A stretch of 36,587 bases of DNA, from contig CAMDOM010000037.1 of NCBI GenBank assembly GCA_945903645.1, positions 1 through 36,587 of the forward strand, written 5' to 3'. The notes under the pieces are model-generated. The model saw nothing but the letters and a program-made list of their open reading frames with translations, was not told where the DNA came from and did no database searches. The stretch is from Chryseobacterium gleum (GTDB lineage: Bacteria; Bacteroidota; Bacteroidia; UBA10329). The translations under genes and the position numbers were made by a program. This document shows positions 2,308 to 27,056 of the stretch, in pieces (position 1 is the stretch's first letter; every line of letters starts with the position of its first letter).

Positions 2308-3108
2308 TTACTTCCCATCAGTAATAGTAGGTTGCACCATTTCGCGCAGCTGCTTGGGCGAAATGCCATGATGCAACACTCCATCTTTAGCTAGCGTGAT
2401 GCCACCAGTTTGTTCAGAAACCACAATTGCCAAGGCATCCGAAGTTTCGGTAAGGCCCACAGCAGCGCGATGGCGCATGCCAAGGTGAACAGGAAAATCT
2501 TCCTTTTCTGTAACGGGAAGCACAGCCCGCGCTGCCACAATACGATTGCCAACAATAATCACCGCACCATCATGCAAGGGACTGTTTTTGTAGAAAATAG
2601 ATTCCAGCAATTTCTCGCTTACCGCGGCATCTATTTTCTCTCCCGTACCAATGTAAAAATCGAGGTTGCTCATGCGTTTCAGCACAATAATGGCACCCGT
2701 TTGGCTTTGCGCCATGGTAGCGCAGGCGCGCACCAAGGCATCGAGCGTAGGGTTGGTGGCTTTCTCTTCGGCACCAAAAAAACGCAACCATGATAGGGGA
2801 AGTCCAATGCCTTTGAGCACATCGGCTGTGCCAATGGCCAATAGAAACTTACGAATCTCTTGCTGAAACACCACCACCAATGCCAACACTCCCACACCAA
2901 CAAATTGGCCCAAAATAGACTCCAACAACTGCATGTTGAGCACACGAACCAATAGCCAAACCAAGTACAGCGAGAGAATGCCTAAGAAAATGCGCACCGC
3001 CACAGTGCCCCTTATGAGGTGAAACAATTGGTATAGCAGCAACGCTACCACTATAATATCTAAGGCATCGAGCCAGCGAAAGGTGATAAAGAGCACGATT
3101 GGGTGCAT
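2308..3108 (-). CDS. cdaA: Diadenylate cyclase CdaA (c-di-AMP synthase)
   Basis: The 266-residue membrane enzyme condenses two ATP into cyclic-di-AMP, a second messenger for osmotic, potassium and wall homeostasis. Hydrophobic segments fill the first ~90 residues (IIVVALLLYQLFHLIRGTVA onwards), then the DisA_N catalytic domain carries DGA (residues 180-182, in LHDGAVIIVG) and RHR (212-214). FVGVGVLALVVVFQQEIRKF is a hallmark of CdaA proteins. The open frame extends to 3237, but family members begin shortly before the first membrane segment. A -7-like TATGTTTG at 3148-3141 overlaps the alternative ATG at 3147, so I chose the ATG at 3108. The partner usually found beside it in Bacteroidota, folP, is not here; the neighbour is the divergent cco cluster. 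No CdaR-like (YbbR) regulator is visible. Confidence 0.9.
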   Translation of the reverse strand: MHPIVLFITFRWLDALDIIVVALLLYQLFHLIRGTVAVRIFLGILSLYLVWLLVRVLNMQLLESILGQFVGVGVLALVVVFQQEIRKFLLAIGTADVLKGIGLPLSWLRFFGAEEKATNPTLDALVRACATMAQSQTGAIIVLKRMSNLDFYIGTGEKIDAAVSEKLLESIFYKNSPLHDGAVIIVGNRIVAARAVLPVTEKEDFPVHLGMRHRAAVGLTETSDALAIVVSEQTGGITLAKDGVLHHGISPKQLREMVQPTITDGK

Positions 3109-3140
3109 TGCGGGGATTTGAATGGCCAAGCCATGGAGGT

Positions 3141-3148
3141 CAAACATA
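3141..3148 (-). promoter_or_regulatory. Candidate -7 element (TATGTTTG) for cdaA
   Basis: Read on the minus strand, TATGTTTG matches TAnnTTTG exactly. It sits about 33 bases before the chosen ATG at 3108. It overlaps the in-frame ATG at 3147, which would then not be transcribed. No clear -33 element was seen. Confidence 0.4.
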
Positions 3149-3229
3149 CAGGAGAATTCTGAAAAATGGACTACACAATTCTGCAATCCTTGAATGAATA
3201 GGCATCTTGAATTAAAGTATTCGAGGAAT

Positions 3230-3245
3230 ACTGACAATAATCAGT
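3230..3245. promoter_or_regulatory. FNR/CRP-type palindrome upstream of ccoS
   Basis: ACTGACAATAATCAGT is a perfect palindrome in its arms (ACTGA-N6-TCAGT) with the TGA-N6-TCA layout of CRP/FNR-family operators. Against the E. coli FNR box TTGAT-N4-ATCAA it matches 7 of 10 defined bases. It lies about 75 bases before the ccoS ATG, in the divergent cdaA-ccoS spacer. A near -7 element (TTCCTTTG, one mismatch) at 3289-3296 would place the box centre about 64 bases before transcription start. A sister site lies at 24815-24834. Regulation of cbb3 oxidase genes by FNR/ANR proteins is well known in other bacteria; here it is inference. Confidence 0.5.
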
Positions 3246-3319
3246 TTTCTCTCTGACCACAATCACCACTGTGGCTGATGCACCCACATTCCTTTGGCGC
3301 ATCAAAACCCAGTAAAGCA

Positions 3320-3547
3320 ATGAGTGCTCTCTTTCTTCTCATCGGTGTCAGTTTGGTTTTTGCCTTTGGTTTTTTGGGAGCATTTCTATGGGCCATGAAC
3401 GACCGCCAGTTTGAAGACGACCATACTCCAGCAGTTCGCATGCTGTTTGATGATAAAATGGTTGTGACCAAAGCCAATCCTCCAATTCAAAATAGTACTT
3501 CAAAAACCATAGTTGAACCAACCGATTCAGCTATCAAAACGCAATAA
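3320..3547 (+). CDS. ccoS: cbb3 oxidase assembly protein CcoS
   Basis: The 75-residue single-pass membrane protein is needed for cofactor insertion (CuB/heme b) into cbb3 oxidase in studied organisms. The start MSALFLLIGVSLVFAFGFLG is one membrane segment, followed by the CcoS signature WAMNDRQFEDDHTPAVRMLF. The tail (about residues 47-75) is Ser/Thr/Pro-rich and not conserved. The open frame extends upstream to 3278, but family members start at MSxxxLLIG, so the ATG at 3320 is preferred. It is the first gene of the cco cluster, 28 bases before ccoNO. The copper ATPase gene ccoI, which often precedes ccoS, is not present upstream. Confidence 0.92.
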   Translation: MSALFLLIGVSLVFAFGFLGAFLWAMNDRQFEDDHTPAVRMLFDDKMVVTKANPPIQNSTSKTIVEPTDSAIKTQ

Positions 3548-3575: not shown

Positions 3576-5684
3576 ATGCAAAAGGAAAGTTTCAACTACG
3601 ACAACGGCATAGTGCGCAAGTTCGCCATAGCCACTATGGTATGGGGCGCGGTGGGCATGCTGGTGGGGCTTATAGCCGCACTGCAAATGACCTCGCCTAT
3701 GTTCAATTTTCTCACCGAATACATTACGTTCGGAAGAATTAGACCACTGCACACCAACGCGGTGATTTTCGCATTTGTGGGAAATGGCATTTTTATGGGC
3801 GTTCACTATTCACTACAACGGCTGCTAAAAACGCGGATGTGGAGCGATAAGCTGAGCAACATCAACTTTTGGGGTTGGCAGCTCATTATCCTTTCGGCAG
3901 TTCTAACGCTTCCGTTTGGCATCACTACCAGCAAGGAATATGCAGAGCTAGAATGGCCTATTGATATTGCCATTGCCCTTATTTGGGTGGTATGGGGTAT
4001 AAATATGTTTATGACCATTTTTAACCGCAGAGAACGGCACTTGTATGTAGCCATTTGGTTTTACATCGGCACGTTTGTAACTGTGGCCATGCTGCATATT
4101 TTCAACTCGTTCGAGTTGCCAATAAGCTTTCTTAAAAGCTATTCTGGCTATGCAGGCGTTCAAGATGCGTTGGTGCAATGGTGGTATGGCCATAATGCAG
4201 TGGCGTTTTTCTTAACCACACCGTATTTGGGTTTGATGTACTATTTCATTCCTAAGGCGGCCAACCGCCCTGTGTATTCTTATCGTCTGTCTGTAATTCA
4301 CTTTTGGGCTTTAATTTTCCTTTACATCTGGGCTGGACCGCACCATTTACTATATACCGCCCTACCCGATTGGGCGCAATCGCTCGGCACAGCTTTTAGC
4401 ATAATGCTGTTGGCTCCATCTTGGGGAGGTATGCTCAATGGCTTACTCACCTTGCGCGGTGCTTGGGACAGAGTTCGCGAAGATGCCACCCTTAAATTCA
4501 TGGTGGTAGCTGTTACAGCTTATGGAATGTCAACATTTGAAGGCCCAATGCTTTCGCTCAAAAACGTGAATGCCATTAGCCACTACACTGACTGGACCGT
4601 TGCTCACGTGCACATTGGAGCCTTGGGTTGGAATGGATTTTTAACCTTCGGAATGCTCTACTGGTTATTCCCACGCATGTGGAATACCAAACTTCACTCT
4701 TCAGGCTTGGCCAATACTCACTTCTGGTTGGGCACTATGGGCATTCTGTTCTACGCCTTGCCGATGTATTGGGCTGGATTTACCCAAAGCTTAATGTGGA
4801 AAGAATTTACTGCTGAGGGTTACCTTGCTTATCCTAACTTCTTGGAAACTGTAACGCAACTTAAACCATTGTATGCCTTGCGAGCCTTTGGAGGTTTGCT
4901 TTACCTTACTGGTGTGTTTGTAATGATTTACAACCTCATTAAAACTGCAAAAAGTGGTGTGTTTCAAGCCAACGAACCAGCGGAAGCTGCTCCATTGGAG
5001 AAAAACATCAGCATAAAAGGAGAAAGCTGGCACCGCACTATGGAGCGCAGACCTATTCAAATGTTGGTATTCAGCCTTGTGGCTGTGAGCATTGGCGGGC
5101 TTATCGAGATTGTGCCTACCATGCTTATCGAGAGCAATATCCCAACCATTTCGGCTGTGAAACCCTACACTCCATTGGAATTGGAAGGTCGTGATGTGTA
5201 TATCAAAGAAGGCTGCAACAACTGCCATTCGCAAATGATTCGACCATTCCGCTCCGAAACCGAACGCTATGGCGAATACAGCAAAGCGGGTGAATTTGTG
5301 TACGACCATCCTCACTTGTGGGGTTCGAAACGAACCGGTCCAGATTTGCACCGTATTGGCGGCAAATTCAGTGATAGCTGGCACTACAATCACATGTACG
5401 ACCCAGGAAGCATATCACCCGGAACCATTATGCCAAGCTACCCATGGCTGATAGACAAAATGGTGGACAGCGCCATGACGCCTAAGAAGATAAACGCCAT
5501 GCGCAGTTTAGGAGTTCCTTATGCCGAAGGTTATGAAAACCAAGCTGTGGCCGATATGCAAACGCAGGCCAATGCAATAGCTGCTAAACTAAAAACGGAG
5601 GGGATTGAAGTGATACCCGAAACCGAAATGGTGGCGCTTATTGCCTATCTGCAACGCTTAGGCACTGACATTAAAACGAAATAA
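3576..5684 (+). CDS. ccoNO: cbb3-type cytochrome c oxidase, fused subunits I and II (CcoN-CcoO)
   Basis: The 702-residue protein is the catalytic core of a high-affinity terminal oxidase reducing O2 to water. The CcoN part (about 1-480) shows heme and copper ligands: H59 (RPLHTNAVIF, low-spin heme b), H206 (WWYGHNAVAFF, CuB), H256-H257 (AGPHHLLY, CuB), and H344 and H346 (VAHVHIGALG, the two hemes b). The CcoO part follows after a linker near 480-510: a membrane anchor (about 513-535) and a c-type cytochrome domain with CNNCH (547-551) and likely Met ligand M619 (GTIMPSY). N-O fusion is the usual arrangement in Bacteroidota, unlike the separate genes of Proteobacteria. It lies 28 bases after ccoS and 56 before ccoQ, probably in one transcript. 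Confidence 0.97.
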   Translation: MQKESFNYDNGIVRKFAIATMVWGAVGMLVGLIAALQMTSPMFNFLTEYITFGRIRPLHTNAVIFAFVGNGIFMGVHYSLQRLLKTRMWSDKLSNINFWGWQLIILSAVLTLPFGITTSKEYAELEWPIDIAIALIWVVWGINMFMTIFNRRERHLYVAIWFYIGTFVTVAMLHIFNSFELPISFLKSYSGYAGVQDALVQWWYGHNAVAFFLTTPYLGLMYYFIPKAANRPVYSYRLSVIHFWALIFLYIWAGPHHLLYTALPDWAQSLGTAFSIMLLAPSWGGMLNGLLTLRGAWDRVREDATLKFMVVAVTAYGMSTFEGPMLSLKNVNAISHYTDWTVAHVHIGALGWNGFLTFGMLYWLFPRMWNTKLHSSGLANTHFWLGTMGILFYALPMYWAGFTQSLMWKEFTAEGYLAYPNFLETVTQLKPLYALRAFGGLLYLTGVFVMIYNLIKTAKSGVFQANEPAEAAPLEKNISIKGESWHRTMERRPIQMLVFSLVAVSIGGLIEIVPTMLIESNIPTISAVKPYTPLELEGRDVYIKEGCNNCHSQMIRPFRSETERYGEYSKAGEFVYDHPHLWGSKRTGPDLHRIGGKFSDSWHYNHMYDPGSISPGTIMPSYPWLIDKMVDSAMTPKKINAMRSLGVPYAEGYENQAVADMQTQANAIAAKLKTEGIEVIPETEMVALIAYLQRLGTDIKTK

Positions 5685-23090: not shown

Positions 23091-23918
23091 CTATCCCAAA
23101 TCGTGCATTACTAGAATTGGCACTTTTACATGCATCGCCAATTTCCGAGTAACGCTACGATGAAAAATAGAATCGAAAAAGTTATTTCTTCTTGGCACTG
23201 TAACCACCAAATCAACTGCATTTGCATGTACGTGTTGCTCAATGGCTAACGCTTTATCTGAATTAGATAAAAACAAGTAATCGTGCGGAATTTCTGCGAG
23301 CAAATGCTCCATTTGAAGTCCAGCAATGGCTTCGTTCACATTGATAACATGACCTTCGTCTACCACATGCAGCAAGTGAAGTTGCGCTCTGGTTTGCTTG
23401 GCCAATTTCAACATAGGTTCGGCTATCTCTGAACTGCTCAATCCCTTATTATCAATTGCAAAAAGAATGGTTTTCGGAAGTTTCAATTCGGCTTGTTGAG
23501 GAACAACAATTACGGGACACGTTGTGGTAGAAACTACTTCGGCCGATACGCTTCCGAATATGGCGCCTTCCAAACCAGAAGCGCCTTTTGTCCCCATCAC
23601 AATCAAATCAATTTTACGCTGTTCAGTTAGTTCATCAATGCAAGGAGCAACTCCGCCAAACACAACTTTCGCCTCGAAAGTGAACGGATTCTTTGAGAAT
23701 TCTGATATCAAAGGTACAACTCGGTCTAACAGATTTCGCTCCATTTCTTGCGCGTCCAACACATTAAAAGTGAGTGGAACATCTGCCCCATAAGCAGAGA
23801 TATCTATAGATTGAAAAATTATGAACGTAGTTGCTTCACCAGATTGAAGTTGCATTGCATAACGCATAGCATGTTCGACATTCGCACTTCCATCCGTTGG
23901 CAGAATTATCGTTTTCAT
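23091..23918 (-). CDS. Universal stress protein, two UspA domains
   Basis: The 275-residue product has two UspA domains (about 1-142 and 148-275). Domain 1 has the ATP-binding motif G-x2-G-x9-G-S (MGTKGASGLEGAIFGSVS). Domain 2 is degenerate there (VPRRNNFFDSIFHRSVT) and probably does not bind ATP the same way. Usp proteins are induced by starvation, redox or oxygen stress in other bacteria. It lies 5 bases after the second usp gene, in one operon. Confidence 0.92.
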   Translation of the reverse strand: MKTIILPTDGSANVEHAMRYAMQLQSGEATTFIIFQSIDISAYGADVPLTFNVLDAQEMERNLLDRVVPLISEFSKNPFTFEAKVVFGGVAPCIDELTEQRKIDLIVMGTKGASGLEGAIFGSVSAEVVSTTTCPVIVVPQQAELKLPKTILFAIDNKGLSSSEIAEPMLKLAKQTRAQLHLLHVVDEGHVINVNEAIAGLQMEHLLAEIPHDYLFLSNSDKALAIEQHVHANAVDLVVTVPRRNNFFDSIFHRSVTRKLAMHVKVPILVMHDLG

Positions 23919-23923
23919 AGGGT

Positions 23924-24739
23924 TTAGCTTTGTGATTCAGGAATTATGAGCAGCGGAATTTTCGCATGCAGGGCCATTTCTTTTGTAACACTAGACCCAA
24001 AAAGATTGGCAAACAAGTCGTTCTTTCTTCGAACCAATACTATTAAATCAATATCGTGTTTGGTTGCGAATTTAGTGATGACGGCTTCCGTGTCATTACC
24101 TTTTTCAAAGTGATATGTATGTGGTAAATCCCCAAATACGTTCATTGGAACGTGGGCATCATTTTCAGCAGGCAAGTGCTGGTCTTCCTTTAAAATATTT
24201 AAAATCTTTATAGAAGCGTTGCTGCATGTAGCAATAAATTGCAGTGCCTCTGGACACTTATCTCTTTGCAATGACAGATTATCGGAAGCAAAGAGTATGA
24301 GTTTCGGTTTTAGAATAGTTGCATCTTCAGGGATCGATAAAACTGGATACCCAACATTTTGAATTACACTAAGCGCAATACTGCCAAGCAACACACCTTT
24401 TAAGCCAGTAGCACCTTTGGTTCCCATCACAACCATGTCATAACCTTTATCCAACAACTTTTTTAGTACTACTTCGGGTAAACCCATTTCGGCTTTCACG
24501 GCTAAAGCATCAGATAAATAGGGGAATTCATCTTCCAATTTCACCAATTGTTCATCCAGCAATTGTTCGGAATCGCGCTTTAGTATATCCGCAATCGATA
24601 TCAGCATTGTGCTTCCAGAATGCGGAATTTGGTATGCATTCACTAAGGTATAGGTGGCAGAATCACCAAAAAGACCTAGCGCATATTTAGCTGCATTATG
24701 GGCATTCTCGGAAAAATCTGTCGGAATTAGAATCTTCAT
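23924..24739 (-). CDS. Universal stress protein, two UspA domains
   Basis: The 271-residue paralogue of the next gene starts MKILIPTDFSENAHNAAKYA. Domain 1 keeps G-x2-G-x9-G-S (MGTKGATGLKGVLLGSIA); domain 2 is degenerate (VRRKNDLFANLFGSSVT). A longer frame reaches 24790 from a TTG, but the ATG at 24739 gives the standard Usp N-terminus. It leads the two-gene operon; a CRP/FNR-like palindrome lies 76-95 bases upstream at 24815-24834. Confidence 0.92.
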   Translation of the reverse strand: MKILIPTDFSENAHNAAKYALGLFGDSATYTLVNAYQIPHSGSTMLISIADILKRDSEQLLDEQLVKLEDEFPYLSDALAVKAEMGLPEVVLKKLLDKGYDMVVMGTKGATGLKGVLLGSIALSVIQNVGYPVLSIPEDATILKPKLILFASDNLSLQRDKCPEALQFIATCSNASIKILNILKEDQHLPAENDAHVPMNVFGDLPHTYHFEKGNDTEAVITKFATKHDIDLIVLVRRKNDLFANLFGSSVTKEMALHAKIPLLIIPESQS

Positions 24740-24814
24740 CTTGCAAAATATTTTTTTTGGAACCTCAAAATAAACAAGTAACTCGGCCAAGAATTGTGAG
24801 AATGGTCAAAACAA

Positions 24815-24834
24815 AAAGTGACTTTAATCACTTT
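24815..24834. promoter_or_regulatory. FNR/CRP-type palindrome between usp operon and M43 protease gene
   Basis: AAAGTGACTTTAATCACTTT has perfect 7-base arms (AAAGTGA / TCACTTT) around six bases, the TGA-N6-TCA design of CRP/FNR operators. It shares TGAC-N2-TAATCA with the site before ccoS (3230-3245). The centre is about 85 bases before the usp ATG and about 130 before the protease ATG, so usp is the more likely target. Confidence 0.5.
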
Positions 24835-24953: not shown

Positions 24954-27056
24954 ATGAATCGTTCTTTATCTATTTTTTTATTCTTTTCACTGTTTTTATC
25001 GTCATTCGCTTCTGCACAAGAATTGCCTTGTGGTTCATCTCAAGTAAACAACGAGGTGTTACGTTTATATCCTGAAAAAGCAGCATTAGCCGAGCAAATG
25101 AATCGGGAAGCTTTGGAATACACTTCAGAAAATTATGGGCAGAATCGAAGTGTTGTTAGGGTAATTCCTGTGGTGGTTCACATAATACATAACAACGGGC
25201 CTGAGAATATTTCAAAAGAGCAGGTGATTGACGCCATGCGAGTAATTAATGAGGATTTTCGAGGTCAAAATCCCGATTTGAATCAAGTTGTAGATAACTT
25301 TTCTGGCATAACGGCAGATTCTGAAGTTGAATTTCGTTTGGCAAAACTTGATCCTAATGGGAATTGTACAGATGGTATTACACGAACAGTTTCAGTCTTA
25401 ACATTTACCGCGGGTGAAAACGTGAAATCACTTGTGAATTGGAACACATCTCGCTATCTGAACATATGGGTTGTAGCCAGTATTGAAAGCGGTGCAGGTG
25501 CATATGCATATTATCCAGGTTGGGCTCCGGGCCAAGACAATGAAGGAATTGTTTGTCGAAATACGCAGTTTGGCAGCATTGGAACAAGTAATGGCGGTAA
25601 TTTTTCTGCCCGCACGCTATCTCACGAAATAGGTCATTACTTCAATCTTGCGCACACCTGGGGAAACAGTAACGACAATAATCTTCCAGAGAATTGTGGG
25701 GATGATGATGGCGTGGATGATACTCCAAATACCATTGGTTCTGCCCAAAATTGCGACCTAAATCAAATTACTTGCGGAAGTCTTGATAACGTTGAGAATT
25801 ATATGGATTACAGCACGTGTGGCAGAATGTTTACGCTAGGTCAAAAGGCAAGGATGCAGTCTGCTTTGCAATCCTCGGCTGGGCAACGTAATAATTTATG
25901 GACAAGCACCAACCGTTTGAATACTGGGACTAACAATGGATTTGATGCTCCATGTGCTCCAACAATCGAATTCTTAGCATCGAATACGCTTGCCTGCGAA
26001 GGTGCCACAGTGCAGTTTACAGACGTGTCGTGGGGTGCTGATCAAGATGAAACTTGGGCATGGAATTGGAGCTTTCCTGGTGGAACTCCCTCTTCAAGTG
26101 CAGAACAAAACCCGATAATCACTTACAACCAAGCGGGAACTTACAACGCTACTCTAACAATTAATACTGGTGCGGGACCAGCAAGCGAAACACAAACCAA
26201 CCTTATTTCAATTGGTGAATTTGGAAACGGACAGTTGGCTCCTTATAGCCAAGGTATGGAAGACGCTACCTTTCCTTCAAATCCTTCAAACTCTAATTAC
26301 GACTGGGCTATTGAGGCGGGTAGTGCTACAACATGGCAACGGACAAGTACCGCAGCTGCAACTGGTGCTGCTAGTGTTCGCATCAATCTTCGGGTAATTT
26401 CATCTGGAACGGTAAACAGCCTAATCTCTCCGCCAATAAATATGTCAGCGGTTTCTTCTGAGGATGCGCGACTTACTTTTAAAGTGGCTCACGCCCCACG
26501 TAATTCTGGAGGCTCAACGGAGCGCTTGAGGGTTTATTCATCTACTGATTGTGGAGAAACTTGGCAAATTCGCTATACCAAAGCTGGTAGCACATTAAGC
26601 ACTATTGGAAGCATTACGGTAAGTGGCACATTTACTCCAAGTGCCAATCAATGGCGCTCTGAAAGTGTTAATCTTGCAACAGCCGCAGGTCAGGAACATG
26701 TGCTTTTCAAATTTGAAGCTTTAAGCGATGGTCAAAATTACCTCTACCTAGATGACATCAATATTCTGGCTGGGACTTTAGGAATTGAGGACAACAATAC
26801 GATTGAAAACGTTTCAGTAATTCCGAATCCAATTTCTGACAACGCCATATTGTCTATTACATCTGCAATGGCATCTGATGTTCACGTTGCAATAACTGAT
26901 GCTTTGGGCAGAATGTTGGGAGATAGTTGGTTGACTATAGATGCTGGTACAATTGCTATTCCGCTGAACAAAGTTGCTTCGGTTTCTATTCCAGGAGTAT
27001 ACTTCGTCACATTGTACTCAGGGCAGAATCAGAGCACCATTAAATTGGTGAAATAG
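24954..27056 (+). CDS. Secreted M43-family metalloprotease with PKD domain and T9SS tail
   Basis: The 700-residue secreted zinc protease (pappalysin/cytophagalysin type) has a signal peptide (MNRSLSIFLFFSLFLSSFAS). The zinc site is HEIGHYFNLAH (H224, E225, H228, H234), followed by the Met-turn NYMDYSTCG (M284). A PKD domain (about 340-425, with WAWNWSFPGG and YNQAGTYNATLTI), a MAM-like or jelly-roll segment (about 430-605), and a T9SS type-A tail (about 620-700, IPNPISDNAILSI to STIKLVK) follow. The usual Gly in HExxHxxGxxH is replaced by Asn here (HYFNLAH), as in several Bacteroidota M43 proteins I recall. It converges on the SGNH hydrolase gene through a shared terminator. Confidence 0.93.
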   Translation: MNRSLSIFLFFSLFLSSFASAQELPCGSSQVNNEVLRLYPEKAALAEQMNREALEYTSENYGQNRSVVRVIPVVVHIIHNNGPENISKEQVIDAMRVINEDFRGQNPDLNQVVDNFSGITADSEVEFRLAKLDPNGNCTDGITRTVSVLTFTAGENVKSLVNWNTSRYLNIWVVASIESGAGAYAYYPGWAPGQDNEGIVCRNTQFGSIGTSNGGNFSARTLSHEIGHYFNLAHTWGNSNDNNLPENCGDDDGVDDTPNTIGSAQNCDLNQITCGSLDNVENYMDYSTCGRMFTLGQKARMQSALQSSAGQRNNLWTSTNRLNTGTNNGFDAPCAPTIEFLASNTLACEGATVQFTDVSWGADQDETWAWNWSFPGGTPSSSAEQNPIITYNQAGTYNATLTINTGAGPASETQTNLISIGEFGNGQLAPYSQGMEDATFPSNPSNSNYDWAIEAGSATTWQRTSTAAATGAASVRINLRVISSGTVNSLISPPINMSAVSSEDARLTFKVAHAPRNSGGSTERLRVYSSTDCGETWQIRYTKAGSTLSTIGSITVSGTFTPSANQWRSESVNLATAAGQEHVLFKFEALSDGQNYLYLDDINILAGTLGIEDNNTIENVSVIPNPISDNAILSITSAMASDVHVAITDALGRMLGDSWLTIDAGTIAIPLNKVASVSIPGVYFVTLYSGQNQSTIKLVK

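Follow-up and report, generated by a model that had tools for sequence, protein, structure and literature searches.

A tandem FNR/CRP-type promoter, probably activated at low oxygen, precedes the cbb3 oxidase cluster and a universal stress protein gene pair in Chryseobacterium gleum

A predicted low-oxygen activator promoter with two tandem FNR/CRP-type boxes was found before the cbb3 oxidase cluster and before a pair of universal stress protein (usp) genes in a 36,587-nucleotide stretch of the Chryseobacterium gleum genome (the window). The palindrome upstream of ccoS would be the upstream half of a complete activator-dependent promoter, at which two dimers of an FNR/CRP-type transcription factor would sit side by side at -63.5 and -41.5, i.e., two helical turns apart. 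The bound dimers would recruit RNA polymerase to the Bacteroidota -7 element (TAnnTTTG), with no -33 element. The cbb3 cluster from ccoS onwards and the usp pair, which has the identical promoter, would be switched on in this way, most likely at low oxygen. This reading is given a probability of about 0.8. The boxes, their spacing, the offset of the -7 element, conservation and the classes of downstream genes are direct observations.

The palindrome ACTGACAATAATCAGT at 3230-3245 lies, as described in a first-pass annotation, in the spacer between cdaA (minus strand, start at 3147) and ccoS (start at 3320), and has the TGA-N6-TCA design. Its counterpart on the usp side, AAAGTGACTTTAATCACTTT at 24815-24834, had been called perfect; instead, both palindromes are imperfect, with perfect outer arms (5 and 7 bp) around an N6 core with mismatches. 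The 12-mer TGAC-N2-TAATCA, proposed as common to both sites, is indeed exact in both and has exactly these two occurrences in the window, and with five one-mismatch matches versus 2.7 expected it is only suggestive. A single TGA-N6-TCA was rejected as evidence, being at chance level in the window (13 occurrences versus about 11 expected, as estimated from base composition).

A second TGA-N6-TCA was located exactly 22 bp downstream of each site, towards ccoS and usp, respectively. In the ccoS promoter, the core of the reported palindrome forms the distal box 1 (TGACAATAATCA, 3232-3243, plus strand), and the second motif forms the proximal box 2 (TGACCACAATCA, 3254-3265, plus strand). The -7 element TTCCTTTG (3289-3296, plus strand), with one mismatch to TAnnTTTG, lies at +57 from box 1. 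The predicted transcription start is at 3301 on the plus strand, as follows from the -12 to -5 placement of TAnnTTTG. ccoS (3320-3547, plus strand) is the first gene of the cbb3 cluster and is followed by a ccoNO-type gene (3576-5684), a ccoP-type gene, ccoG, ccoH, an SAE-type gene and hemN (all names by sequence resemblance). The usp promoter is arranged likewise on the minus strand, with box 1 (TGATTAAAGTCA, 24819-24830), box 2 (TGACCATTCTCA, 24808-24797) and the -7 element TTATTTTG (24766-24773) at +57 from box 1. Downstream on the same strand lie the first usp gene (23924-24739; PF00582, E-value 8.6e-26) and the second (23091-23918).

The usp site shares its spacer with a divergent secreted metalloprotease-like gene (24954-27056 of the window). 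The same pairing was seen in most members of the genus (L043, L049, L061, L064, L066, L072 and L075), and in L073 the site before a CBS-domain gene likewise comes after one of these genes. The pairing of metalloprotease-like gene and box-bearing promoter may be conserved for a reason.

The whole genome (3.195 Mb) was analyzed by pattern searches rather than by a matrix scan. The exact tandem occurred three times, twice in the window and once inside a coding sequence, with 0 control matches. The copy in the coding sequence (C11:13028) was set aside as chance, as were most one-mismatch tandems, which also fall in coding sequence. Allowing one mismatch added two intergenic sites, namely C32:15363 before a CBS-domain gene and C10:39203 (minus strand) before a small conserved gene; these were chosen from eight one-mismatch places for being intergenic and because the genes they precede are found repeatedly behind the element in other places. 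At each of the four own-genome sites, TAnnTTTG with at most one mismatch was present as a -7 element at exactly +57 from box 1, as compared to a background chance of 0.0074 per position, and the distance from box 1 to the start codon was 82 to 91 bases. Since the search had used the boxes alone, the -7 element provided a largely independent check. At the own-genome ccoI gene (L240:1429 on contig C13; start codon uncertain), a single box, TGACGTTCGTCA, is followed by GAATTTTG at +34. This arrangement is close to the single-box design described below, one base off.

In Flavobacterium psychrophilum, TAnnTTTG lies at -12 to -5 (PMC9723704). From this placement and the offsets between boxes and -7 element, the two boxes are predicted to have their centres at -63.5 and -41.5, and single boxes with the element at +35 theirs at -41.5. 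The latter is the canonical position of a class II activator, and the operator would therefore stand where such a promoter has it; this placement is a prediction from the offsets. The operator itself, an inverted TGA-N6-TCA, is that of FNR/CRP-type class II promoters, and altered spacers (N5, N7) were at chance in related loci.

The exact tandem was present 3 to 7 times in each of nine genomes of the genus, while the reversed control gave 0. Many of these tandems clearly belong to promoters, namely of usp, ccoI, ccoS/ccoN and CBS genes, with the end of box 2 usually about 50 to 60 bp from the start codon; tandems in coding sequence or without a clear target are probably due to chance. When the spacing between boxes was left free (0-30), it was exactly 10 bp in 28 of 76 pairs within the genus, with every other spacing found four times or fewer. 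One member of the genus has no ccoN (G006); there the tandem lies before an operon for cytochrome c and a nitrate reductase-like (narG-type) enzyme (L245:11040-12026), and another Crp/Fnr gene is nearby.

For a wider comparison, genome contigs were scanned with a CcoN alignment, yielding 80 named loci from Bacteroidota, Ignavibacteria and related groups, with 77 usable upstream regions. Box 1, as TGAY-N4-RTCA, was present upstream of ccoS/ccoN in 61 of the 77 (2.25 in shuffled sequences; 2 and 1 with N5 and N7 spacers), a recognizable box 1 being absent from about a fifth of the related loci. The tandem, with TGA or TAA in the second box, was found in 34 of the 77 upstream regions, as compared to 0.01 in shuffles. 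Among 32 tandem promoters, 28 had TAnnTTTG within one mismatch at +57. The promoters not scored as tandem had it at +57 in 12 cases, many with a degenerate second box, and at +35, i.e., exactly 22 bp closer, in 10. The tandem counts given beside these offsets lean upward, since the instance of box 1 at each locus was chosen with a preference for tandems; the -7 offset was outside this choice.

The elements were combined into a composite 65-bp pattern (box, 10, TRA-N6-TCA, 23, TAnnTTTG), which matched in 113 of 296 genomes of the class, representing 74 of 166 genera; no genome listed matched the reversed control. The strict composite leaves out the window's own sites only through one mismatch in their -7 elements. 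Of 30 loci fetched by the composite alone, 12 lay before ccoS or ccoN, and usp genes, a REC-CRP regulator gene and the small conserved gene were also among them. With an earlier, stricter box sequence, 11 matches were obtained beyond the genus and none in the control; ccoN, usp and a cytochrome-oxidase-like operon were among the downstream genes. Related genomes are not independent, and controls and shuffles of the same sequences were near zero. The shared FNR/CRP-type operator proposed in the first-pass annotation gained support from a tandem design that recurs before oxidase and usp genes, its expectation of conservation in relatives was borne out within the genus and the class, and composite and tandem matches lay before respiration, haem and usp genes, as anticipated, with controls at zero. 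The common regulon suggested there for oxidase, usp and related genes is likewise favoured by the genus, phylum and composite searches, with low oxygen as its likely signal.

A protein of about 125 residues, conserved and with no Pfam or NCBIfam match, is encoded downstream of tandem boxes and beside usp/hemN genes (L074:2646-3014, minus strand; L095:187-561, minus strand; L096:1571-1963, plus strand; L273). It is a candidate new low-oxygen gene family.

That the likeness of the ccoS and usp sites arose by chance is suggested by the lone motif, which is about as frequent as base composition predicts, and is a practically negligible alternative in view of the zero control matches (tandem, 9 genomes; composite, 296 genomes), the recurrence of the same classes of downstream genes and the -7 element at +57 in four of four own-genome sites. 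For the composite element, the chance reading is already contradicted. It is fairly unlikely that only one box is the regulator's site, the second TRA-N6-TCA being the site of a second transcription factor or part of the core promoter. Box 2 is indeed more degenerate than box 1, often with TAA for TGA; it may be weak or of another kind, and in some promoters a lone box stands directly at -41.5. Yet box 2 kept the TCA 3' half in all tandem promoters selected, often as a full TGA-N6-TCA at the fixed two-turn spacing, and the single-box promoters mark -41.5 as a working position for the same box. We infer that one Crp/Fnr protein occupies both boxes and acts there as an activator in response to low oxygen. 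The first-pass annotation had further suggested that the site could also act on cdaA and so connect oxygen sensing with c-di-AMP. The position of the site within the divergent cdaA-ccoS spacer would allow this; however, the sole -7 element within one mismatch in that spacer, both strands considered, points to ccoS, and none is directed at cdaA. In addition, none of the 80 related loci and none of the genus relatives checked had cdaA adjacent to cco, the neighbour in G004 being a different one. The link to cdaA is therefore very unlikely.

Candidate regulators were sought beside the oxidase genes. In 15 of the 80 loci, a Crp/Fnr gene lay no more than about 6 kb from ccoN, and all cco-adjacent Crp/Fnr proteins except one paralogue carry the recognition helix GT(A/S)xExxxR, with the Glu and Arg of FNR. 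In FNR, these two helix residues contact DNA. Several of the proteins are fusions of receiver, cNMP-binding and HTH_Crp domains, and the remainder are standalone. Ten standalone proteins (L121, L124, L127, L156, L158, L166, L174, L176, L179 and L180) share the pattern C-x2-C-x45-C-x52-C, in which three cysteines fit the spacing of FNR and the fourth is displaced; the fusions are without these cysteines. The distance of 99 from the second to the last cysteine equals that of Cys23 to Cys122 in FNR (E. coli numbering), with one ligand position differing. The NCBIfam Fnr model was the best match of the standalone proteins, with about 95 bits, below its cut-off of 228.

The REC-CRP fusion is encoded upstream of ccoI in six genomes of the genus and, where seen, is preceded by a kinase. 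Such regulators following PAS histidine kinases were located at L096:428-1486, L246:6269-8886 and L243:3-2014. The first PAS domain of the kinase beside the fusion, FixL/DosP-like in L246, matches FixL and DosP and has its haem histidine aligned with that of FixL, the distal Arg of FixL being Met there (manual alignment, one relative). The regulator of the relatives is probably a four-cysteine FNR-like protein or a Crp-output response regulator, the latter with an adjoining FixL-like kinase where the neighbour was seen.

The own genome encodes four Crp/Fnr proteins, none of which is a fusion or has the FNR cysteines. The first-pass annotation had called for a Crp/Fnr regulator, and these four answer to that, whereas neither an FNR-like iron-sulphur regulator nor a REC-CRP fusion was found in the assembly, which is 95% complete. 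The fusion was not found as the regulator here, nor was a FixL-like kinase partner, and the place of the kinase and fusion in the nearest relative holds another gene. Only L014 among the four has an FNR/CRP-type helix, with Glu and Arg kept and without the FNR cysteines. Candidate readers of the boxes in the own genome are L014 or a gene in the missing 5% or so of the assembly.

Autoregulation was rejected, a box being near the start of only 3 of the 15 cco-adjacent regulator genes. One REC-CRP gene (L263) has the full composite upstream. In L180, the FNR-like gene (2582-3298, minus strand) has the box TGATAATTATCA 24 bases upstream of its start codon, in overlap with the likely core promoter, which would fit autorepression.

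The targets in the genus and in the wider loci are respiratory and low-oxygen genes, as in an FNR regulon, and a predicted low-oxygen regulon is well supported by comparison. Low oxygen is the likely signal, judging from the target genes and the neighbouring sensors. In F. psychrophilum, cbb3 oxidase and haem genes are strongly induced under oxygen limitation (PMC9723704). It is unlikely that the boxes serve instead a CRP/MalR-type regulator answering carbon or general energy state, with the oxidase genes as one target among many. The own-genome Crp/Fnr proteins are nearer CRP than FNR, and in a community study, Crp/Fnr homologues of Flavobacteriales and Saprospiraceae were predicted to sense carbon (PMC8510549); against this, the targets are respiratory, haem and usp genes, and for the cco-adjacent regulators the Fnr model gives the highest score, with either four conserved cysteines in the protein or a FixL-like kinase as partner. 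The tandem boxes are thus preferably read as low-oxygen activator sites. On a wider scale, much of Bacteroidota may share a low-oxygen regulon with a standard 65-bp promoter and two exchangeable readers, one being an FNR variant whose fourth cysteine is displaced and the other a FixL-like kinase paired with a Crp/Fnr-output response regulator that merges FixJ and FixK; some genomes, perhaps this one, would keep the promoters with a changed reader. We put this proposal at even odds.

Oxygen control in Bacteroidota is poorly assigned, a transcript map of a flavobacterium having recorded cbb3 induction without naming a Crp/Fnr protein in the main text (PMC9723704) and homologues having been ascribed to carbon sensing (PMC8510549). 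The promoter rule (box, 10 bp, box, 23 bp, TAnnTTTG) allows the regulon to be listed directly in any genome of the class. It also offers a route to the sensor of the regulon and to low-oxygen reporters for Bacteroidota.

Oxidase, haem and usp genes are target classes of FNR/ANR in Proteobacteria. The class II promoters of FNR/ANR have in common with those described here the TGA-N6-TCA core, the activator box at -41.5 and these targets. They differ in that two boxes (-63.5 and -41.5) are the common form here and the core promoter is TAnnTTTG, and the own-genome Crp/Fnr proteins found are not FNR by their cysteines. The oxygen-limitation response of F. psychrophilum shares TAnnTTTG, and cbb3 and haem genes are up there; the main text of that study neither names Crp or Fnr nor describes the operator (PMC9723704). 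HcpR2 of Bacteroides and Porphyromonas also represents an FNR-like family in Bacteroidota, its predicted regulon comprising hcp genes and not cbb3 (PMC1274295). No Bacteroidota operator of this kind was found described in a search of the open-access literature. For the fusion system, the closest analogue would be rhizobial FixL-FixJ-FixK, which controls fixNOQP (cbb3): in both, cbb3 genes have as neighbours a FixL-like PAS kinase and, adjoining it, a regulator that binds DNA through a Crp/Fnr domain, whereas in the relatives of the own genome, and not in its assembly, a single protein combines the receiver and Crp/Fnr domains.
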